In this document: piece by piece, positions 17,894 through 45,821 of the stretch
Layout of the letters: each line of letters starts with the position of its first letter
Position numbering within the stretch: position 1 is the stretch's first letter
Origin: Halomarina rubra
GTDB taxonomy: Archaea > Halobacteriota > Halobacteria > Halobacteriales > Haloarculaceae
Direction of reading: 5' to 3'
DNA length: 64,000 nucleotides
NCBI RefSeq assembly: GCF_023699475.1
Contig: NZ_JALXFV010000005.1
Location: 186,001 to 250,000 of the forward strand
Translations under genes and position numbers: made by a program
The notes under the pieces: model-generated
Databases searched by the model: none
What the model saw: only the letters and a program-made list of their open reading frames with translations
Told to the model about the DNA's origin: nothing

Positions 17894-19027
17894 ATGACCG
17901 ACACGACACCCGTCGTCGTCCGGGCGTACCGAACTCCGTTTGGCAAGGAAGACGGCGTGTTCGCCGACGTACGAAGCGAGGACCTCTCGGCTCCGCTCAT
18001 CGACGAGATTCTGGCCGACACCGGGCTCTCGGGCGAGGACGTCGACGACCTGATGTGGGGGTGTGCCCAGCAGCGCGGCGAGCAGGGCAACAACATGGCG
18101 CGCATCGTCGCGCTGCTGTCGGACCTGGGCGAGTCCGTCCCCGGCACGACCATCAACCGCTGGTGTGCCTCCTCGGCGCAGGCCGTCGCCAGCGCGGCCG
18201 ACGCCGTCCGCGCGGGCCAGCGCGACGCCATCATCGCCGGCGGCGTCGAGAACATGTCCCGGACGAAGATGGGCGCGAACACCCAGATGCACCCCCGGAT
18301 GAACGAGGACTACAACCTCGCGGCGCTCCAGATGGGGATGACCGCCGAGGAGGTCGCCGAACGCTACGACGTCTCCCGCGAGGACCAGGACGACTACGCG
18401 TTCCGCAGCCACCAGCGCGCCAGCGAGGCGACCACCAGCGGCCGCTTCGACGACGAGATCGTCCCCATCGAGACCGACGAGGGCACCGTCAGCGAGGACC
18501 AGGGCATCCGCCACGACGTCTCCCGGGAGAAGATGGGCGAACTGCCGACCGTGTTCAAGGCCGACGGGAGCGTCACGCCCGGCAACGCCTCCCAGATCAC
18601 CGACGGCGCGGCCGCGCTGCTCGTCACCTCGAAGGCGTTCGCCGAGGACCACGGCCTCGACGTGCTCGCCGAAATCGGCAACAACAGCGTCGCCGGCGTC
18701 GAACCCGAAGTGATGGGTATCGGTCCCATCCCCGCCGTGCGGGACCTGCTCGAACGCTCGGGTCGTGACATCGAGGACTACGACCTCGTCGAACTGAACG
18801 AGGCGTTCGCCAGCCAGTGTCTCTACTGCCAGCGCGAACTCGGCATCGACGACGAGAACTACAACGTCAACGGCGGCGCAATCGCCCTGGGTCACCCGCT
18901 CGGCGCGACCGGTGCCCGTCTGCCCGTCACGCTCATCCACGAGATGATCAAGCGCGACGCCGAGCGCGGCATCGCGACGGAGTGTGTCGGCTTCGGCCAG
19001 GGGATGGCCATCGAGTTCAGCCGGTAG
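17894..19027 (+). CDS. Acetyl-CoA C-acyltransferase (thiolase)
   Basis: A 377-residue thiolase. Seen: the nucleophilic Cys in [11 protein letters not shown] (about residue 90), GGVENMSR, a VELNEAFA segment, the catalytic His in [10 protein letters not shown] and a second Cys in [10 protein letters not shown]. This complete set supports an active enzyme that either condenses acetyl-CoA (towards mevalonate or polyhydroxyalkanoate precursors) or cleaves 3-ketoacyl-CoA. Family length is normal. No SCP-x/DUF35 partner is adjacent, so it is of the ordinary thiolase type. Transcribed alone; the last 27 bp of the gene region are repeated 140 bp downstream. Confidence 0.93.
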
Positions 19028-19227: not shown

Positions 19228-20058
19228 TCAGCGGGGTTTGCGCGCCTCGACGACCGACGAGACGAGGTACTCGCTCAGGTCGCGCTCGTCGTCCCACTCT
19301 CGGATGAACGAGGCGCTCTCGTCTTTCGGTTCGATGGAGACCGCCTCGAACCCGGCCCGGTCGAGCATCGCTTCGAGGTCGGCGAACGTCGCCGCCCCCG
19401 AGACGCAGGCGGCCAGCGCCGCGGGGTTCTCGGTGACGTCCTCGGGGGACGGCGCGGTCTGGACGACGTCGGAGATGGCGACCCGACCGCCCGGTTTGAG
19501 CGCGCGGAACGCCTCCGCGAACACCTGTTGCTTGTCCGGCGAGAGGTTGACGACGCAGTTCGAGATGACGACGTCGACCGTCCCGTCCGCGACCGGGAGG
19601 TGTTCGATTTCGCCCAGTCGGAACTCGACGGCGTCGGTGTCGTTTCGGCGTGCGTTCTCGCGGGCCTTCTCGACCATCTCGGGGGTCATGTCGACGCCGA
19701 CGACGTGGCCGGTCGGCCCCACCGCGTTGGCTGCGAGGAAGCAGTCGAACCCCGCGCCCGACCCCAGGTCGAGGACGGTCTGGCCCGGTTCGAGCGCGGC
19801 GATGGCCGTCGGGTTGCCACAGCCGAGACCGAGGTTCGCGCCGTCGGCGACCGCGTCGACGTCGGCGTCGTCGTAGCCCATCTCGCGGGACTGCTCGTCG
19901 ACGCTCGACGAACAGCACTGGTCGGCGTCGTCCGCACCGTCTGCACCCCCGTCACAGCACCCGTCGGACGACTCCGTCGCGATAGCGGCGTAGCGCTCGC
20001 GGACGATGCGGCGCTGTTCGTCGGCGCTGCGGGCGGTCGCGCCCTCGCCGTCACTCAT
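19228..20058 (-). CDS. arsM: Arsenite S-adenosylmethionine methyltransferase
   Basis: A 276-residue methyltransferase that should convert As(III) to methylated arsenicals with SAM. The SAM site is seen in LDLGSGAGFDCF and GVDMTPEMV. The three conserved catalytic-type cysteines are in GLGCGNP, ISNCVVNL and AACVSGA. An N-terminal stretch adds two Cys pairs (GCCDGG and QCCSSS), likely extra As(III) ligands. The ATG at 20058 overlaps the arsR stop by eight bases, giving translational coupling, and the arsR product will control it. Divergent from nothing on this strand; ends 60 bp from the second 27-bp repeat. Confidence 0.92.
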   Translation of the reverse strand: MSDGEGATARSADEQRRIVRERYAAIATESSDGCCDGGADGADDADQCCSSSVDEQSREMGYDDADVDAVADGANLGLGCGNPTAIAALEPGQTVLDLGSGAGFDCFLAANAVGPTGHVVGVDMTPEMVEKARENARRNDTDAVEFRLGEIEHLPVADGTVDVVISNCVVNLSPDKQQVFAEAFRALKPGGRVAISDVVQTAPSPEDVTENPAALAACVSGAATFADLEAMLDRAGFEAVSIEPKDESASFIREWDDERDLSEYLVSSVVEARKPR

Positions 20059-20437
20059 CGGTCGCACCTCGCACTTCGTCGAGGGTGTCGAGCAGTCGGG
20101 TCGCGACCGGGGTGGCGCTGTAGTACCGCCACCGGCCCTCCTTGCGCCGGTCGACCAGTCCCGCGCCGTGGAGACGAGAGAGCGCCTGACTGACCGCCCC
20201 CTGGCTCACGCCGAGCGCTGGCTGGACTTCACAGACACAGACACCGTCGTCGCCCGCCTCCGCGACGAGTCGCAACGCCTCGTAGCGCGTGTCGTTGCCG
20301 AGCGCCGAGAGCAGTCGCACGTCGGCCGCGACGCTCGCCTCGTCGATGGCGACACCGGTCGAACAGCACGCTGCGTCCGCCTCCTCGACCTCGCCCGTCT
20401 CGCCGGTCTCCTCACCGGCAGTCGTCTGCTGGCTCAT
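20051..20437 (-). CDS. arsR: ArsR/SmtB-family transcriptional regulator
   Basis: A 128-residue winged-helix repressor. The family core is clear: VRLLSALGNDTRYEALRLV, the metal-binding-type helix with CVCEVQ, the recognition helix GVSQGAVSQALSRL and the wing DRRKEGRWRYYSA. The CVC motif is the classical As(III)-binding site of ArsR, and an N-terminal Cys pair (ACCSTG) may complete it. The ATG at 20437 (MSQQTT) is chosen because upstream codons lie in the A/T-rich operator. It precedes and overlaps arsM, so arsenite should lift repression of both. Confidence 0.92.
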   Translation of the reverse strand: MSQQTTAGEETGETGEVEEADAACCSTGVAIDEASVAADVRLLSALGNDTRYEALRLVAEAGDDGVCVCEVQPALGVSQGAVSQALSRLHGAGLVDRRKEGRWRYYSATPVATRLLDTLDEVRGATDE

Positions 20438-20440
20438 TTT

Positions 20441-20475
20441 AGCTATCGCTAATATTAGCATCTGCTGATATAGCT
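20441..20475 (-). promoter_or_regulatory. Probable ArsR operator and promoter
   Basis: Just before the arsR ATG, a perfect palindrome GCTAATATTAGC (20448-20459) is nested within flanking arms AGCTAT (20441-20446) and ATAGCT (20470-20475). This is the only A/T-rich block between arsR and the divergent R2lox gene. The inner palindrome and the TATA-like cores overlap, so binding of the dimeric repressor would block initiation. Confidence 0.75.
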
Positions 20476-20619: not shown

Positions 20620-21561
20620 ATGACGCAAGTAGAGGACGTCACCCGGCAGCTCCGACTCGACCGCGACGCGAAGGCCCAGCAGTTCTTCGAGCACGCGGCG
20701 TACAACCACTGGGACCCCTACGAGGACATCCCACAGGAGATGGTCGACGCCGACCGTCAGACCATCATCGACTACGACATCGCCGAGGAGGAGTTCGAGG
20801 AGTTGATGCTCGCGCTGGCGCTGTTCGGCGCGGGCGAGGAGGCGGTGACCGAGGACCTCGCCCCGCTGATGCTCGCGCTCGACGACGTGAACAAGCAGAT
20901 GTTCGTCTCCTCGCAGATCTACGACGAGGCCAAACACACGCAGTTCTTCGACCGGACGTGGCGCGAGATAATCGTCCCCGCGGCGGAGGCCCACGGCTTC
21001 GACGTCACCTACCCGACCGACCAGCGCTTCTTCAACGAGGAGTACGTCGAACTGTTCGACCGCACGGAGACGGCGATGGAACGGCTGTTGACCGACGACA
21101 CGCCCGAGAACCGCGTCAAGGCGTACTGCCACTACCACCTCGTCGTCGAGAGCGTGCTCGCCCAGACGGGCTACTACGGCCTCCAGTCGGCGCTGAGCGA
21201 CCACGGCGACGACATCGCGGTCGGGGAGTTCCCGAACTCCGAGAGCGTCGCGACGGGCATCGGCTACATCCGCGCCGACGAGGGCCGGCACGTCGGCTTC
21301 GGGATGCACGAGATACGCCAGCACGTCCACGAGGACGGCGTCGACACCCAGGTCGTCCACGACACGCTGATGGACCTCATGCCGCTCGTCGCGAGCACGC
21401 TGAGTCGGTTCGGGGCGACGGTCGACCCGGTCGCGCTCGTCGACTACTCGCGGGACAAGTTCACCCGACGCATCGAGGTCCTGACGAACGAAGCCGCGGA
21501 GATACCCGACATCGAGACGCTGGTCGACCTCGACGCACAGGGGCCGGCGAGCGCCGACTGA
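20620..21561 (+). CDS. R2-like ligand-binding oxidase (R2lox)
   Basis: A 313-residue ferritin-like protein. The six metal ligands of the R2 fold are in place: Glu73, Glu103 and His106 (DEAKH), Glu177, Glu221 and His224 (DEGRH); the fourth Glu sits in helix 4 spacing expected of the family. Two features separate R2lox from the ribonucleotide reductase R2: Val76 three residues after Glu73 and Tyr172 five residues before Glu177. In characterised R2lox proteins these form a Val-Tyr ether crosslink at a Mn/Fe cofactor that binds a long-chain fatty acid. The true RNR R2 is encoded elsewhere (44305-45297), so this is not a second nrdB. It is followed 76 bp later by a BtrH-like gene. Its physiological substrate is unknown. 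Confidence 0.85.
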   Translation: MTQVEDVTRQLRLDRDAKAQQFFEHAAYNHWDPYEDIPQEMVDADRQTIIDYDIAEEEFEELMLALALFGAGEEAVTEDLAPLMLALDDVNKQMFVSSQIYDEAKHTQFFDRTWREIIVPAAEAHGFDVTYPTDQRFFNEEYVELFDRTETAMERLLTDDTPENRVKAYCHYHLVVESVLAQTGYYGLQSALSDHGDDIAVGEFPNSESVATGIGYIRADEGRHVGFGMHEIRQHVHEDGVDTQVVHDTLMDLMPLVASTLSRFGATVDPVALVDYSRDKFTRRIEVLTNEAAEIPDIETLVDLDAQGPASAD

Positions 21562-21637
21562 GCCGTCGTCGCGGGCCTTCGCGGTCGGAACGCCGGCAGG
21601 ACGGAACCGTTATCGGCGGGCCGCGACAGCCTCGGAC

Positions 21638-22636
21638 ATGGAACTCTCGGGCTACGACCACGCGACGGGCCGCCACTGTGGCTCGACGTCGCTGTCGAAC
21701 CTCGCGCGCTACTACGACTGGGGCCTCGACGAGGCGACCTGTTTCGGCCTCGCCTCCGGACTGGGGTTCACCTTCTTCGAACTCGACGACTCGCCCCACC
21801 GCGCGTTCTTCGGTCGCCCCGTCTACCTCGAACGGGCGTTCTTCCACACGCTCGCCGTTCCCCACGAGGAACGTGAGGGTGCGGACTGGGCGGACGCCTG
21901 GGCCGACATCCGCTCGCGCGTCGACGACGGCCACCCGGTGCTGGTGTTCACCGACATCTACGACCTCGACTACTTCGACACGGACACCCACTTCGCCCCC
22001 CACTCGCTGCTCGTCGTCGGCTACGAGGACGACGAGGTGCTGCTCTCGGACAGCGAGTTCGACGAGCCACAGCGGCTCCCCGTCGAGCGCCTCCGCGCGG
22101 CGATGAACTCCCGGGCGATGGTGCCCCTGAACAACCGCTACATCACGGTCACCGACCCCGAACTCGGGACCGACCTCGACACCGCCATCGAAGACGCCAC
22201 CGTCGAGATGGCCCGCTCGATGCTCCGACCCGGCGGCGGTCGGTTCGACCCCGGCCCCGTCGGCGTCCACGGCCTCGCCGGTATCCAGCGCCTCGTCTCG
22301 GACATGGCGTCGTGGACACAGCTCCCGGATCCGGCGTGGACGACACGCTTCGCCTACCAGAACGTCGAACGACGCGGCACCGGCGGTGGCGCGTTCCGCG
22401 GCCTCCAGCGCGACTTCTTCCGGACCGTCGACCACCCCTTCGGCGAGGAGACGACCCAAGAGATGGCCGCCATCGCCGACGACTGGACCGCCGTCGGGGA
22501 GACCCTGAAGGAGGCCAGCGAGGCCGACGACGACCGTGACCTGCGCGACGGCATCGACGAGGCCGCCGGCGAGATTCGCCAGCTCGCCGACCGCGAGGCG
22601 CGGCTCTACCAGTCGATTCTCGACACGGCGAACTGA
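21638..22636 (+). CDS. BtrH-like N-terminal domain protein (putative acyltransferase)
   Basis: A 332-residue protein. Its start (GYDHATGRHCGSTSLSNL) looks like BtrH-type proteins and relatives with a cysteine-peptidase-like fold, where Cys (residue 14) lies at the start of a helix. A VLVFTDIYDLDYF strand, an FAPHSLLVVGYE segment (candidate catalytic His) and a LLSDSE motif follow. In butirosin biosynthesis BtrH moves an acyl group from a carrier protein to an aminoglycoside; the haloarchaeal protein lacks such a cluster, so its acyl donor and acceptor are unknown. Residues 180-332 look like a helical domain. A GTTATC core about 30 bp upstream gives it its own leaderless promoter. It is next to R2lox on the same strand. 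Confidence 0.7.
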   Translation: MELSGYDHATGRHCGSTSLSNLARYYDWGLDEATCFGLASGLGFTFFELDDSPHRAFFGRPVYLERAFFHTLAVPHEEREGADWADAWADIRSRVDDGHPVLVFTDIYDLDYFDTDTHFAPHSLLVVGYEDDEVLLSDSEFDEPQRLPVERLRAAMNSRAMVPLNNRYITVTDPELGTDLDTAIEDATVEMARSMLRPGGGRFDPGPVGVHGLAGIQRLVSDMASWTQLPDPAWTTRFAYQNVERRGTGGGAFRGLQRDFFRTVDHPFGEETTQEMAAIADDWTAVGETLKEASEADDDRDLRDGIDEAAGEIRQLADREARLYQSILDTAN

Positions 22637-22652: not shown

Positions 22653-23087
22653 CTACTCGTGGTGGGTACCGGCCGTCCACGGCGTCTCGCCGGTGACGCC
22701 GCCGGTCTTGTACACTCCGCGAGCGGTGGCGACGTGCGTCCCGGTGCCGTCTTCGATGTCGACGGTGACCGTCGCCACGCTGTTGCCGTTGCGCGTCACC
22801 TCGGCCGTCGCGACGAGTCGCTCGCCCGTCGCGGGCGCGAGGTAGTCGATGCGCATGTCGATGGTCGGCGTCACCGTCTCGTTGAGTTCGACCACGGCCG
22901 CCCCGCCGATGGTGTCCGCGAGCGAGTACGCCACCCCGCCGTGCGCGATCATGCTTCCGGGGTTCGAGGAGTGTTCCTCGCGCAACTCGACGTGCCCCGT
23001 CGCTCGCCCCTCGCCCACCTCGTCGAGTTCGATGCCGAGGTGGTTGGCGAACGGGATGGAGTCGAAGAAGGCGTCGACGATGCTCAT
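22653..23087 (-). CDS. PaaI-family acyl-CoA thioesterase (hotdog fold)
   Basis: A 144-residue hotdog-fold thioesterase. The typical PaaI pattern is seen: IPFANHLGIELDEV at residues 11-24, then NPGSMIAHGGVAYSLADT (the HGG active-site loop with a downstream Asp/Thr) and MRIDYLAPA (late strand). PaaI enzymes hydrolyse (hydroxy)phenylacetyl- and related CoA esters; the specific substrate here is not shown. It converges on the BtrH-like gene with a 16-bp gap and stands between two terminator-like regions, so it is likely a single-gene transcript. Confidence 0.88.
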   Translation of the reverse strand: MSIVDAFFDSIPFANHLGIELDEVGEGRATGHVELREEHSSNPGSMIAHGGVAYSLADTIGGAAVVELNETVTPTIDMRIDYLAPATGERLVATAEVTRNGNSVATVTVDIEDGTGTHVATARGVYKTGGVTGETPWTAGTHHE

Positions 23088-23299: not shown

Positions 23300-25003
23300 T
23301 TAGTCGTCGGCCGGGGCTGCGTCGCCGCTGGCCGCGCCCGCGGGGAGCGCGCCGTCGGGGACGACGCCGTCGTCGGTCCAGCCGCGCAGGTCGTAGTACT
23401 CCGAGAGGGCGTCGCTCAGTCCCGCGATGTCGTAGGGCAGGTCGTCGTCGGCCGCGCGGTCCATCCCGCGTTGGTTGTTGAAGTGGCGTTCGAGCGTGAC
23501 GATGCGCTCGCCGACCGCGAGCAGTTCGTCGTAGTCGGCGTCGAGCAGCGCCTCCCAGCGCTCCTCGCGGACGTGCGAGGACGCGAACTTACAGAGGACG
23601 GCGGCGTCCTTCAGCGCGTTCTGGTTCTCGCGGTCGACGACGTGCTCGGCCTTCCCCTCGACGCCCTCGCGGTCGAGTGCGAGTTTCGGCGGCACCAGCG
23701 GGTACTCCAGCTGGTACATCTCGGCGTACATGTGGTCCGCACCTCGGTTCGAGGTGGCGAACGAGAGTCCCTGCCCGTTCAGCGTCCGGCCGTCGTGGGC
23801 GGCGAACTCCATGCCCTTCATCGACCAGTTCTCGACGCCCAGCTCCTCGTGACAGCGGTCGATACCCTCTGCGAGCGTGTCGCCGACGCCCTCGCGCAGC
23901 GCGATTGCCTCGATGAGTTCGTGGATGCGTTCGACGTCGCCGAACGCGTCTTCGCTCTTGAGCTGGGCGGCGATGACGTCGCCACAGGAGATGGTGTCGA
24001 GACCGTAGACGTCACAGAGGTCGTTGGACTTCATGATGGCGACGAAGTCGTCGACGTCCGCGTTCGACCCGAACGACATCACCGTCTCGTACTCGGGGCC
24101 CTCGGTCTCCAGGCCCGACTCCTCGTCGCGGGTCGGCAGTTTGCACGCGAACGCACACGACGAGCAGGTGCCCTTCTTGTACTTGTGCTCGATGACCGCG
24201 CCCGACCCGATGTCCTCCGCGCCCTCGAACTGGAGGTCCTCGAAGTACCGGGTCGGCAGCGCGCCGACGGAGTTGGCGTACTCGGTGACGGAGACGGTGC
24301 CGGCGTCTTTCATCGGACTGCCCGACTCGGAGGCCTCCTTGTGGACCTCCATCGTCGCCTCGCCCTCCACGAGCGTCTCGGGCGGTGACTCGCCGTCGAA
24401 CGTGAGGAACTTCACGTTCTTCGCGCCGAGGACGGCCCCGAGACCGCCGCGTCCGAACGCGCGGGACTCGCTGGTCATGATGGAGGCGAAGCGGACCTCG
24501 TTCTCGCCGGCCGGGCCGACGACGGCGGTGTGCTCGGCGTCGAGGCCGTGTTCGGCTTCGATGTGCCCGAGCGTCTCGGGGACCGTCGCGCCCGCGAGGT
24601 CGGGGACCGGTTCGAACTCGACAGTGTCGTCGCGCACGTGGATGCCGACGAGGTCCTCGCTCTGGCCGACGACCTCGACCGCGGAGAAACCGGTCGCGAG
24701 GAAGTTCCGCGAGAGGAAGCCGCCCGCGTTCGATGAGCAGAGGCCGTCCGTGAGCGGCGACAGCGCCGTCGCGGACATCCGACCGGTGAAGCTCATCGTC
24801 GCGGTCTGGAGCGGTCCCGTCGCGAGGTAGAGGCGGTTGTCCTCGCCGAACGGGTCGGCGTCGAACGGGATGCGGTCGTGGGCGAGCGCCGTCCCGACGC
24901 CGCGTCCTCCGAGGTAGTCGGCGAGCACGTCGTCGATGGCGGACTCCTCGGCGGTCTGCGCGCTCACGTCGATCGTGAGCAGCGGGCCTTCGGCGTGAAT
25001 CAT
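23300..25003 (-). CDS. aor: Aldehyde ferredoxin oxidoreductase (tungsten enzyme)
   Basis: A 567-residue tungsten-bispyranopterin enzyme that oxidises aldehydes to acids with ferredoxin. N-terminal pterin-binding segments include YLGGRGVGTA and a SGRMS-like FTGRMSATAL; the 4Fe-4S motif CxxCxxxC lies at GTCSSCAFACK with the fourth Cys in AAVLCKFASS near the C-terminus. A FGRGGLGAVLG segment fits the cofactor-binding site. Length is slightly below the 600-residue average. The ATG at 25003 lies behind a GCTTATG core about 25 bp upstream, so the transcript is probably leaderless. No moaD-like sulphur carrier or ferredoxin is adjacent. Confidence 0.93.
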   Translation of the reverse strand: MIHAEGPLLTIDVSAQTAEESAIDDVLADYLGGRGVGTALAHDRIPFDADPFGEDNRLYLATGPLQTATMSFTGRMSATALSPLTDGLCSSNAGGFLSRNFLATGFSAVEVVGQSEDLVGIHVRDDTVEFEPVPDLAGATVPETLGHIEAEHGLDAEHTAVVGPAGENEVRFASIMTSESRAFGRGGLGAVLGAKNVKFLTFDGESPPETLVEGEATMEVHKEASESGSPMKDAGTVSVTEYANSVGALPTRYFEDLQFEGAEDIGSGAVIEHKYKKGTCSSCAFACKLPTRDEESGLETEGPEYETVMSFGSNADVDDFVAIMKSNDLCDVYGLDTISCGDVIAAQLKSEDAFGDVERIHELIEAIALREGVGDTLAEGIDRCHEELGVENWSMKGMEFAAHDGRTLNGQGLSFATSNRGADHMYAEMYQLEYPLVPPKLALDREGVEGKAEHVVDRENQNALKDAAVLCKFASSHVREERWEALLDADYDELLAVGERIVTLERHFNNQRGMDRAADDDLPYDIAGLSDALSEYYDLRGWTDDGVVPDGALPAGAASGDAAPADD

Positions 25004-25081
25004 ACACCGATGCAACTGCCGGACCCGCATAAGCTCCCGCGTTTCAAATTCCGAACGACAACGAGACGAGAGGAGAGACGG

Positions 25082-41536: not shown

Positions 41537-41672
41537 GTCCAGTCGGTTCTCGGAGCACCCTCATGAGTCCGGGGCCGGCGACGGTACGGCCATCGGAGGA
41601 CCGACACCGCCCCGACCAACCCCGGACGTGCCAGAGTGCAAATTGAATTGTCCTACAGCAACCACGCTTGGC

Positions 41673-41680
41673 AAACTTTA
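41673..41680 (+). promoter_or_regulatory. TATA-like box upstream of nrdA
   Basis: AAACTTTA about 87-94 bp before the nrdA ATG, in a short A/T-rich patch that also contains the direct repeat AATTG-AATTG at 41641-41650. It would leave a leader of about 60 bases. The remaining gap (41537-41766) shows no gene. Confidence 0.4.
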
Positions 41681-41766
41681 TGCACCGTCACCGGGACGGA
41701 GGAGACACGGCGAACCGCCGTCAGAGGCCACGACACGGCAGACGGCGGCGAGTGGCGACACTACCG

Positions 41767-44253
41767 ATGAGTCAACACACCACCGACGACGACGGACTAC
41801 GCTCGACGGTCGAGCGCGCACGCACCGGCCACGAAGGGGTCGTCGACGAGGCGGCGGCGACCGACCTCGTCCGGACGGTCGAACGGAGCCTCCCGACCGA
41901 CGCCGACGCCAAGGACCGGGACGACGCGCTCGTCGACGCCGCGAGTGCTCGCATCGAACGGGACCCCGCGTACGAACGACTCGCCGCGCGGGTCGCCCGC
42001 TGGCGGTACTACCGCCGCATCCTGGGGGCGGTCCCCGAGGACGACGCGGCACTCGCGACGGCCTACCGCGAATCGTTCCGCGAGACCGTCGAACGCGGCG
42101 TCGAGGCGGGGCGACTCGACGCTCGGATGACCGACTTCGATTTGGACACGCTCGAAGAGGCGCTCCGTCCGGAACTGGACGAGCGACTGGGCTACGTGGC
42201 GATGGAGACGCTCGTCCAGCGCTACTTCCTGCGGGTCGACGACGACCCGACCGAACTCCCGCAGGTGTTCTGGATGCGCGTCGCGATGGGCCTCGCGTTG
42301 AACGAGGACGACCCCACCGCACGGGCCGTCGAGTTCTACGAGGCGATGGCCCGCCTGCGGTTCGTCCCCTCGACGCCGACGCTGTTCCACGCCGGGACGA
42401 GCCACGCACAGCTCTCGTCGTGCTACCTGACGACGGTGCCCGACGACCTCGACGCCATCTTCGACGCCTACGGCGAGCACGCGAACCTCTCGAAGTGGTC
42501 GGGCGGCCTCGGCACCGACTGGACACCCGTCCGGGCGACCGGCGCGACCATCGATTCGACGGGCGTCGACTCCACCGGCGTCGTCCCGTTCCTCAAGATA
42601 TCGAACGACGTGACCGCGGCCATCAACCGTTCGGGAAAGCGCCGCGGGGCGGCCTGCGCCTACCTGGAGTGCTGGCACCTCGACTTCCCCGCGTTCTGCG
42701 ACCTGCGACGCAACACCGGCGACGAGCGCCGGCGCACCCACGACATGAACACCGCGGCGTGGATTCCGGACCTGTTCGTCCAGCGCGTCCGCGAGGACGG
42801 CCGGTGGACGCTGTTCTCGCCCGACGAGGTGCCCGACCTCCACGACAGCTACGGCCGCGAGTTCGCCGAGCGCTACGAGGCGTACGAGGAGCAGGCCGAC
42901 GACGGAGAAATCGAGCAGTTCGAACGCGTCGACGCCGCCGACCTCTGGCGGACGATGCTCACCCGTCTGTTCGAGACCGGCCACCCGTGGCTCACGTTCA
43001 AGGACCCCTGCAACGTCCGCTCGCCACAGGACCACACGGGCGTCGTCCGCTCGTCGAACCTCTGTACCGAGATTACGCTCAACACGTCGGCCGAGGAGAC
43101 GGCGGTCTGTAACCTCGGGTCGGTGAACCTCTCGCGGCACGTCGTCGTGTCGGAGGCGTCGAGCGCGGACGACGACACCGGGGCGAACGCGCGACTCGAC
43201 CGCGAGCGCCTCGCCGACACCGTCGAGACGGCGATGCGGATGCTCGACGACGTCGTCGACCTGAACTTCTACCCCAGCGAGAAGGCCGAGCGCTCGAACC
43301 TGCGCCACCGTTCCGTCGGTCTCGGCGTGATGGGCTTCCACGACGCACTCACCGACCTCGGCGTCCCGATGGCCAGCGAGGAAGCCGTCGAACTCGCCGG
43401 CGACCTCCAAGAGCGCGTCGCGTACCACGCCATCCTGAACTCCTCGAAGTTGGCCCGCGAACGCGACCCGTACGACAGCTACGAGGGGTCGAAGTGGGAC
43501 CGCGATATCTTCCCGCAGGACACCATCGAACGGCTCGAAGCCGAACGCGGCGAGTCGGTCGCCGTCGACCCCGAGGAGTCTCTCGACTGGACCGCGGTGC
43601 GCGAGCACGTTGCCGCCCACGGGATGCGCAACTCGAACACGATGGCCGTCGCACCGACCGCGACCATCTCGACCATCGCCGGGACGACGCCCTCGGTCGA
43701 ACCGCGCTACTCGAACCTCTACGTCAAGTCGAACATGTCCGGGGAGTTCACCGTCGCCAACGAGCGCCTCGTCGCGGACCTGAAACGCGAGGGGCTGTGG
43801 GACGACGGGATGGTCGACCGCCTGAAGTACCACGACGGCTCCGTCCAGGAGATTCGGGAGGTTCCCGAGTCCGTCCGTGACCTCCACCGGGGCGCGTTCG
43901 AAATCGACCCGCGTCACCAGGTCCGAGTCGCCGCCCAGCGTGGCGTCTGGATCGACCAGAGCCAGTCGCTCAACGTCTTCTTCCCCGGCACGGACGGTTC
44001 GGTGTTGGACGACGTCTACCAGCGCGCCTGGGAGTCGGGACTGAAGACGACCTACTACCTGCGGACGCTCGGCGCGAGTCAGATAGAGAAGTCGACGCTC
44101 GACCTCTCGGAGTACGACGGGACGCAGTTCCGCGACAGCGCGGGCGACGGCCGCGACAGCGCGGGCAACAGCCACGACACCGGGGCGACCAGCGACGACA
44201 CGGGCGGCGAACTCCCGAGCGTCGAGGACCCGACCTGCGACGCCTGCCAGTAG
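41767..44253 (+). CDS. nrdA: Ribonucleoside-diphosphate reductase, alpha subunit (class I)
   Basis: An 828-residue catalytic subunit that reduces ribonucleotides. Seen: the first redox cysteine in SSCYLT, SGGLGTDWTPVRA, the active-site loop SNLCTEITLNT (radical Cys), the second redox Cys in AVCNLGSVNLS, PTATISTIAGTTPSVEP and a C-terminal CDACQ thioredoxin-accessible pair. The first 100 residues lack a recognisable VxKRDG-type ATP-cone, so dATP feedback on overall activity may be missing. The ATG at 41767 is preferred over upstream Arg-rich codons. nrdB follows 51 bp later, and the B-subunit type matches a Mn/Fe cofactor. Confidence 0.95.
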   Translation: MSQHTTDDDGLRSTVERARTGHEGVVDEAAATDLVRTVERSLPTDADAKDRDDALVDAASARIERDPAYERLAARVARWRYYRRILGAVPEDDAALATAYRESFRETVERGVEAGRLDARMTDFDLDTLEEALRPELDERLGYVAMETLVQRYFLRVDDDPTELPQVFWMRVAMGLALNEDDPTARAVEFYEAMARLRFVPSTPTLFHAGTSHAQLSSCYLTTVPDDLDAIFDAYGEHANLSKWSGGLGTDWTPVRATGATIDSTGVDSTGVVPFLKISNDVTAAINRSGKRRGAACAYLECWHLDFPAFCDLRRNTGDERRRTHDMNTAAWIPDLFVQRVREDGRWTLFSPDEVPDLHDSYGREFAERYEAYEEQADDGEIEQFERVDAADLWRTMLTRLFETGHPWLTFKDPCNVRSPQDHTGVVRSSNLCTEITLNTSAEETAVCNLGSVNLSRHVVVSEASSADDDTGANARLDRERLADTVETAMRMLDDVVDLNFYPSEKAERSNLRHRSVGLGVMGFHDALTDLGVPMASEEAVELAGDLQERVAYHAILNSSKLARERDPYDSYEGSKWDRDIFPQDTIERLEAERGESVAVDPEESLDWTAVREHVAAHGMRNSNTMAVAPTATISTIAGTTPSVEPRYSNLYVKSNMSGEFTVANERLVADLKREGLWDDGMVDRLKYHDGSVQEIREVPESVRDLHRGAFEIDPRHQVRVAAQRGVWIDQSQSLNVFFPGTDGSVLDDVYQRAWESGLKTTYYLRTLGASQIEKSTLDLSEYDGTQFRDSAGDGRDSAGNSHDTGATSDDTGGELPSVEDPTCDACQ

Positions 44254-44304
44254 CGACACCGAGACGCATCGCCAGCCGACCAGCCCACCACACAGCCACC
44301 ACAG

Positions 44305-45297
44305 ATGCCGATTCTCGACACCGACGGAACCCACGACCCGAACAAGATACTGCCCATCGACTACGACTGGGCGCGCGAGTACTACCAGGCCGGCGTCGCT
44401 AACAACTGGACGCCCGAGGAGATACCGATGGGCGACGACGTCGACCAGTGGACGGGCGACGCGCTCACCGACGCCGAACGCCGCCTCGTCGAGTGGAACC
44501 TCGGGTTCTTCTCGACGGCGGAGTCGCTCACCGCGAACAACGTCGTCCTCGCCGTCTACGACCACGTCACCGCTCCCGAGTGTCGCCAGTACCTCCTCCG
44601 GCAGGCCTACGAGGAGGCCATCCACACGGACACGTTCATCTACTGCTGTGACTCGCTGGGGTTCGACCCCGAGTACCTCTACGGCATGTACGACCGCATC
44701 CCCGCCATCGAGGCGAAAGACGAGTTCGTCGTCGACCTGACGCGGGCGGTCGACGACCCCGCGTTCACCGTCGAGACGACCGCCGACGTCCGCGAACTGC
44801 TACGGGACCTCGTCGGGTTCTACGTCGTCATGGAGGGCGTGTTCTTCTACGCCGGGTTCGCGATGATGCTCGCGCTGAAACGCCAGAACAAGATGGTCGG
44901 CGTCGGCGAGCAGTTCGAGTACATCATGCGCGACGAGTCGCTGCACGTCAACTTCGGCGTCGACCTCGTCGGCCAGATACGCGCCGAACACCCCGAGGCG
45001 TGGACCGACGAGTTCGGCGCGGAGGTCGTCTCCCTCGTCACCGACGCCGTCGACCTCGAACGGGCCTACGCCCGCGAGGCGTGCCCGCCGGACGTGATGG
45101 GGATGCACCCCGAGAGCTTCGAGGAGTACGTCGAGTACGTCGCCGACCGCCGCCTCGGCCAACTCGACCTGCCCGCACAGTACGGGACGGAGAACCCGTT
45201 CCCGTGGCTCTCGGAGTCGGTCGACCTCAATAAGGAGAAGAACTTCTTCGAGACGAAGGTCACCGAGTACCGGAGCGGGGGGTCCCTGGAGTGGTGA
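44305..45297 (+). CDS. nrdB: Ribonucleoside-diphosphate reductase, beta subunit (class Ic-like)
   Basis: A 330-residue R2 protein. Metal ligands: Glu73 (position of Asp84 in E. coli), Glu104, His107, Glu177, Glu211 and His214. The residue four after the first His, which carries the tyrosyl radical in class Ia/Ib, is Phe111. Glu at the first ligand and Phe at the radical site are the pattern of class Ic enzymes such as Chlamydia R2, which store the oxidising equivalent in a Mn(IV)/Fe(III) cluster. So a tyrosine radical is not expected. It is co-transcribed with nrdA and overlaps the next gene by four bases. Confidence 0.95.
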   Translation: MPILDTDGTHDPNKILPIDYDWAREYYQAGVANNWTPEEIPMGDDVDQWTGDALTDAERRLVEWNLGFFSTAESLTANNVVLAVYDHVTAPECRQYLLRQAYEEAIHTDTFIYCCDSLGFDPEYLYGMYDRIPAIEAKDEFVVDLTRAVDDPAFTVETTADVRELLRDLVGFYVVMEGVFFYAGFAMMLALKRQNKMVGVGEQFEYIMRDESLHVNFGVDLVGQIRAEHPEAWTDEFGAEVVSLVTDAVDLERAYAREACPPDVMGMHPESFEEYVEYVADRRLGQLDLPAQYGTENPFPWLSESVDLNKEKNFFETKVTEYRSGGSLEW

Positions 45298-45821
45298 GCG
45301 ACGACGCCGGGGACGGCGACACCGGGCACGACGGTACGCTCGCAGCGGTGCCCGAGACGGCGACGCTGCTCGACTCCTACACCGAGATGAGCGAGATACT
45401 GATGCCCAACGACACGAACAACCTCGGGCGGGCGCTCGGCGGGTCGGTGCTGCACTGGATGGACATCTGCGGAGCCATCGCCTCGCGACGGTTCGCCCGC
45501 CGGCAGGTCGTGACGGCGTCGATGGACCACGTCGACTTCCTCGCGCCCATCGCGCTGGGCGACGTCGTCACCGTCGAGGGCTACGTCTTCGAGACCGGTC
45601 GCGCGAGCATGGACGTGCGCGTCACCGTCCGGGCCGAACGACCCGCCGCGGACGAACGTCGGGACACCGCCACCTCCTTCTTCACGTTCGTGGCGCTCGA
45701 CGCCGACGAGAGTCCGACCGCCGTCCCGGACCTCGACTGTCCGGACGAACGCCAGCGCGCGCTCAGGGACAGAGCGTTGGAACAGCGCTCGCGACGACGA
45801 CGGGACCTCGCAGCGCAGTAG
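45294..45821 (+). CDS. Acyl-CoA thioesterase (hotdog, YciA-like)
   Basis: A 175-residue single hotdog domain. It shows NDTNNLGRALGGSVLHWMD, the acyl-CoA thioesterase active-site segment, then VTASMDHVDFLAPI and a FFTFVALD strand, then a Arg-rich C-terminus. It should hydrolyse medium/long acyl-CoAs. The start is the GTG at 45294, whose GTGA overlaps the nrdB stop by four bases; a GTG at 45291 is an alternative. Translational coupling to RNR genes is unexpected for this function and may simply be an efficient way to express both. Confidence 0.88.
   Translation: MSDDAGDGDTGHDGTLAAVPETATLLDSYTEMSEILMPNDTNNLGRALGGSVLHWMDICGAIASRRFARRQVVTASMDHVDFLAPIALGDVVTVEGYVFETGRASMDVRVTVRAERPAADERRDTATSFFTFVALDADESPTAVPDLDCPDERQRALRDRALEQRSRRRRDLAAQ

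Follow-up and report, generated by a model that had tools for sequence, protein, structure and literature searches.

Within the 64,000-nucleotide stretch of the Halomarina rubra genome analyzed here (the window), a gene for an R2lox-like ferritin-fold oxidase is followed, 76 bp from its stop to the next start, by a codirectional gene for a BtrH-like putative acyltransferase (Table 1). In the reading that we favor with moderate confidence, these genes encode two separately transcribed enzymes of lipid or acyl-CoA catabolism that are now adjacent in one sub-lineage of Halomarina, and their relationship is best read as a loose link within a common metabolic neighborhood. This reading draws on conserved residues, predicted folds, the gene contexts of both families, the promoter motif of the BtrH gene, co-location on mycobacterial plasmids and one published study (PMC10867098). 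An initial annotation of this DNA had noted the 76-bp spacing, the Val-Tyr cross-link residues of R2lox and the BtrH-like identity of the second protein, all of which are confirmed, and had proposed that the two enzymes form a dedicated modification pathway; it is partly supported, its observation being right and its interpretation too specific. A literature search, the coverage of which left out most subscription journals, returned no paper treating R2lox and BtrH jointly.

Table 1. Positions of the features discussed (window coordinates unless another locus is named).
Feature	Position	Strand	Remarks
Thiolase (acetyl-CoA C-acyltransferase)	17894..19027	+	
ArsM arsenite methyltransferase and ArsR-family regulator	19228-20461	-	between thiolase and R2lox
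R2lox-like ferritin-fold oxidase	20620..21561	+	313 aa; assigned by residues, family profiles and fold
BRE/TATA-like candidate promoter of the BtrH gene	21603..21614	+	GGAACCGTTATC; TTAT at -28
BtrH_N + DUF4872 papain-like putative acyltransferase (BtrH)	21638..22636	+	332 aa; triad C14-H122-D138
PaaI-like hotdog thioesterase	22653..23087	-	convergent with BtrH
Aldehyde:ferredoxin oxidoreductase (AOR) family protein	23300..25030	-	
NrdA	41668-44253		class I RNR; ~20 kb from R2lox
NrdB	44305-45297		class I RNR
Independent R2lox-BtrH cluster of genome G077	L084 5226-12887		all on one strand

Identity of the two proteins

Alignment places the metal ligands of the window R2lox at E73, E103, H106, E177, E221 and H224 and its cross-link pair at V76-Y172. 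Positions 73, 76, 103, 106, 172, 177, 221 and 224 correspond, in that order, to E69, V72, E102, H105, Y162, E167, E202 and H205, the key residues of GkR2loxI given in PMC10867098. Of 73 distinct homologs aligned, 72 are full-length and one, left out of the count, is partial; all 72 retain the eight residues unchanged, down to approximately 28% identity. The protein looks catalytically complete, with a Mn/Fe cofactor, an ether cross-link and a bound long-chain ligand predicted from its membership in R2lox. Its five matches in NCBIfam are all R2lox models, the best of which scores 113.1 bits against a curated cut-off of 194, an annotation threshold and no chemical feature; since it scores below that value, the protein is filed as a divergent subfamily and not as a named equivalog. 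A phmmer comparison with GkR2lox (4hr0) gave an E-value of 2.1e-21, and in a Foldseek search with the predicted model (pLDDT 85.5) ranks 1 to 34 were occupied by R2lox structures, the first R2 protein of ribonucleotide reductase (RNR) appearing at rank 35.

In the neighboring protein, both BtrH_N (103.6 bits) and DUF4872 (111.5 bits) exceed their Pfam cut-offs. When the active site was checked in relatives (58 distinct rows, 56 of them full-length), Cys14 and His122 were each kept in 55 of the 56 full-length rows and Asp138 in all 56. The sole triad exception is a decayed copy in genome G057 (L054 1501-2490), in which Cys14 and His122 are lost and the frame is otherwise open. With its triad in place, the window protein too looks catalytically complete. 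The predicted model (pLDDT 94.1) matches CtaG (Z 24.1), CcbD (Z 22.2) and AziU3 (Z 20.8) over its whole length. No credible relative was found when the PDB was searched with the BtrH sequence and with a BtrH profile, the relatives named here coming from the fold search alone. On its modeled fold, which is that of thioester-to-amine acyltransferases, the protein would most likely be an acyltransferase drawing acyl groups from thioesters.

Gene contexts in haloarchaea and on bacterial plasmids

Sixty-two distinct haloarchaeal R2lox loci were compared (63 rows, of which L133 and L162 are the same locus). At 36 of them, a gene for beta-oxidation or glyoxylate metabolism, an acyl-CoA ligase gene or a thiolase gene lies no more than 5 kb away; the other 26 are without any listed catabolic gene at that distance, which counts against the favored reading. 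Within the same distance, AMP-ligase genes occur at 15 of the 62 loci, enoyl-CoA hydratase genes at 17 and acyl-CoA dehydrogenase genes at seven. In the 4.07 Mb of the window genome there are 22 matches to AMP-ligase and 12 to enoyl-CoA hydratase; at that density, a ligase would fall in roughly 6% of random 5-kb neighborhoods, as against the 15 of 62 R2lox loci. Given these matches, acyl-CoA catabolism is well represented in this genome, and the remark in the initial annotation that haloarchaea have few fatty acids is misleading. The second R2lox gene of the same genome (C9:453412) is preceded by ABC transporter, AMP-ligase and enoyl-CoA hydratase genes and directly followed by an acyl-CoA dehydrogenase gene. 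Beside the window R2lox there is no gene for an electron-transfer partner, a further point against the favored reading.

Isocitrate lyase lies within 5 kb in 10 of the 62 R2lox loci and an HpcH/HpaI-superfamily gene, read as malate synthase, in nine. Of the 71 family genomes that have an isocitrate lyase match, 12 have R2lox within 5 kb of it, with the HpcH/HpaI gene alongside; this glyoxylate link is limited to three genera of the family, which likewise weighs against the favored reading. An HTH_10 regulator is found within 1.5 kb in 22 of the 62 loci. In Natronomonas and Halorarius (L073, L109 and their relatives), R2lox adjoins an HTH_10 regulator, isocitrate lyase and a malate-synthase-like gene, and these loci possibly represent an acetate/alkane regulon.

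Published work bears on the same question. According to PMC10867098, GkR2loxI degrades alkanes in crude lysate and its gene is surrounded by a catabolic gene cluster; the use of crude lysate counts against the favored reading, as does a double ligand mutant that retained much of the alkane activity. The same paper cites work in which a haloarchaeal R2lox gene was induced by hexadecane. With this report and this citation, haloarchaeal R2lox as an alkane oxidizer is already in print, and the earlier statement that R2lox has no known substrate is outdated; what R2lox acts on in the cell continues to be debated.

The surroundings of BtrH were counted at 28 family loci from 29 genomes (the places in G040 and G041 are the same and were counted once) by tblastn with representative proteins, as were those of R2lox, a method by which diverged neighbors can be missed. 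Within 3 kb, thiolase is present at 18 loci and the hotdog thioesterase at 14; an NhaP-type antiporter is found at 12 (within 6 kb), and the AOR family protein at six and R2lox at three (both within 5 kb). These counts reflect shared ancestry in part, and a hotdog neighbor was found at none of the 20 order-level BtrH loci fetched, which counts against the favored reading. In Haloferax mediterranei, whose BtrH figures in PMC12863089, the gene adjoins one for an alpha/beta hydrolase and R2lox is not nearby. On an Acinetobacter plasmid BtrH stands beside two PaaI thioesterase genes, in Rhodococcus beside one, and in M. chubuense among genes for a P450, a transglutaminase-like protein, a fatty-acid-CoA ligase, an acyl-CoA dehydrogenase, SCP2 and an NDMA-alcohol dehydrogenase. 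The neighborhood of BtrH and PaaI thioesterase in three distant groups points to a likely catabolic role for a family known from antibiotic clusters. The row on Rhodococcus pRB11 (L186 28880-35520) consists of ferredoxin, P450, FAD reductase, transglutaminase-like, BtrH and PaaI thioesterase genes.

On three Rhodococcus plasmids, R2lox is flanked by genes for an NDMA-dependent alcohol dehydrogenase (NDMA-ADH), an FAD oxidoreductase and a ferredoxin, with aldehyde dehydrogenase, SCP2, fatty-acid-CoA ligase and MCE importer genes adjacent or a few kb further on. Such a run resembles a parts list of an oxygenase, its electron supply and alcohol-consuming steps, and offers the clearest biochemical hint. 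On two mycobacterial plasmids, a single run holds the genes for R2lox, a fatty-acid-CoA ligase, NDMA-ADH and BtrH. Among eight actinobacterial R2lox plasmids of the mycobacterial or rhodococcal type, six carry BtrH at 4, 18.8 or 28 kb from R2lox, these six being three near-duplicate pairs; five Streptomyces records with weaker matches were set aside. Of the other two of the eight, NC_012520.1 was searched over its whole length and lacks BtrH. In Rhodococcus, BtrH lies within a P450 gene run and R2lox within another run.

Linkage between R2lox and BtrH

The BRE/TATA-like motif at -28 of BtrH recurs unchanged in G056 and with a one-base difference in G054, and is retained whether the upstream gene is R2lox (window), another gene (G056) or ArsR (G054). 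A loose BRE/TATA pattern at the right distance was found in 21 of 28 BtrH upstream regions, as against 0.21 expected from shuffles, and in four of 61 R2lox upstream regions, as against 1.08 in shuffles. Judging from these motifs, BtrH is most likely transcribed separately, as a leaderless mRNA, with read-through being possible. Since the motif is kept in the window genome, G054 and G056 and the pattern in 21 of 28 upstream regions, a strict R2lox-BtrH operon is unlikely.

A scan of 146 family genomes found R2lox in 63, with a maximum of seven copies in one genome, and BtrH in 29, 28 of which also have R2lox; in a sample of the order, R2lox is present in at least 122 of 342 genomes among the matches listed. 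The two genes are close in three of the 146 family genomes: the window genome, G056, in which a gene for a PQQ_2 beta-propeller protein stands between them, and G077, of another genus, in which genes for a luciferase-like monooxygenase, a hotdog protein, BtrH, an HTH_10 regulator and R2lox share one strand, with a second BtrH gene downstream. R2lox was found within 5 kb at none of 20 order-level BtrH loci (20 fetched of about 40 new places), and BtrH in none of the flanks of 31 named R2lox loci (up to 10 kb per side, shorter at contig ends). The pair, whose conservation the initial annotation proposed to check, recurs in G056 and independently in G077 and on mycobacterial plasmids, and is lacking in most of the family and at the order-level BtrH loci fetched.

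In the BtrH tree the window protein is closest to that of G054 and next to that of G056, and the branching of the R2lox tree is not mirrored in that of BtrH. In the sister species G054 the island is the same, in the order thiolase-ArsM/ArsR-BtrH-hotdog, but lacks R2lox; R2lox must therefore either have been ancestral at this site, with later loss, or have arrived on two occasions. At the DNA level, the window and G056 are 87% alike across their R2lox blocks but differ from R2lox to the next gene. ArsM/ArsR genes occupy the equal position in G054 and are absent there in G056.

A rather unlikely alternative is that the two genes are chance neighbors, R2lox having entered the site between the thiolase and BtrH genes in an ancestor of Halomarina, without any pathway common to the two enzymes. 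The rarity of the close pair, the G054 island, the promoter retained by BtrH and the discordant trees all agree with it; however, gene density (84 listed R2lox copies, 29 BtrH genomes) leads one to expect 0.11-0.18 close pairs, as against two independent lineages (Halomarina and G077) that have one (P ~0.006-0.014, post hoc), and R2lox and BtrH are co-located on mycobacterial plasmids too.

In a wider proposal, which we regard as improbable, R2lox, BtrH and a PaaI-type thioesterase form a cross-domain module of plasmids and haloarchaea: R2lox or a P450 of the cluster would hydroxylate an alkyl chain, BtrH would pass acyl-CoA to an amine and the thioesterase would recycle CoA. If true, such a module would constitute a conjugation or detoxification branch of hydrocarbon or lipid catabolism.

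More doubtful still is the pathway of the initial annotation, in which BtrH acylates an amine and R2lox oxidizes the chain, or the reverse, to give one modified product. It is consistent with the codirectional genes and their short spacing, with the fold of BtrH, which is that of amide-forming acyltransferases, and with the one-strand order hotdog-BtrH-regulator-R2lox in G077, but most R2lox and most BtrH genes lie apart, the beta-propeller gene splits the pair in G056, and the two genes belong to different runs in Rhodococcus. With close pairs in so few family genomes, a promoter belonging to BtrH and an island without R2lox in the sister species, a dedicated two-gene pathway is not upheld.

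Finally, that the R2lox gene encodes an RNR small subunit or radical generator, as several haloarchaeal records annotate such genes and as the membership of both proteins in one superfamily might suggest, is so improbable as to be ruled out by the profile scores (R2lox models alone match in NCBIfam, no NrdB model at E 0.01; Pfam PF00268 gives 18.4 bits, below its cut-off of 33.6), the invariant cross-link residues, the fold ranks and a complete, separate NrdA-NrdB pair in the same window, so that the cell has no need of R2lox in that role. A YciA-like hotdog thioesterase gene follows NrdA-NrdB at 45291 (block 41668-45818).

Proposed roles and comparison with known systems

In the favored reading of two loosely linked catabolic enzymes, R2lox is most likely an alkyl-chain hydroxylase, which would activate O2 at a Mn/Fe (or Fe/Fe) center and hydroxylate an alkane, fatty acid or comparable lipid on its long alkyl chain, giving an alcohol to be taken up by dehydrogenases, ligases and beta-oxidation. 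BtrH, for its part, would load Cys14 with the acyl group of a thioester (acyl-CoA being the most likely donor in archaea) and hand this group to an acceptor such as an amine, and may work with the adjoining thiolase and hotdog thioesterase. We infer the substrates, the direction of reaction and a class of acyl chain common to both enzymes. The Rhodococcus runs, together with the glyoxylate-shunt and beta-oxidation loci of haloarchaea, make the idea of R2lox as an alkyl-chain hydroxylase directly testable, archaea included.

CtaG (closthioamide), CcbD (celesticetin) and AziU3 (azinomycin), which are papain-like thioester-to-amine enzymes of antibiotic pathways, are encoded in antibiotic clusters, whereas the window BtrH lies among acyl-CoA genes and no gene for a carrier protein is visible nearby. 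The window protein has the Cys-His-Asp order of CtaG and its His-to-Asp spacing of 16 (for CtaG, from the numbers of C11A, H128A and D144N in PDB titles), but is 12-17% identical to the three enzymes. BtrH itself is, according to PMC10318531, a thioester-to-amine acyltransferase of an antibiotic pathway, and the two Pfam domains ally the window protein with the DarH/BtrH acyltransferases (NF053550, PF14399); scoring 100.4 bits against the NF053550 cut-off of 300, it is a relative of DarH and not DarH.

The window R2lox resembles those of Geobacillus kaustophilus (GkR2loxI, 4hr0) and Mycobacterium tuberculosis (3ee4) in its six ligands, its Val-Tyr pair and its top fold matches, and GkR2loxI also in its catabolic gene surroundings, as these are described in PMC10867098. 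Unlike 4hr0 and 3ee4, to which it is ~24-27% identical, it scores below the NCBIfam cut-off and belongs to a haloarchaeal subfamily with up to seven copies per genome. As for the pair, the bacterial clusters of Rhodococcus differ from it in having a dedicated ferredoxin/reductase and MCE import, and the plasmid clusters of Rhodococcus and Mycobacterium (R2lox or P450, NDMA-ADH, fatty-acid-CoA ligase, BtrH) are like it in that R2lox and BtrH are both present.
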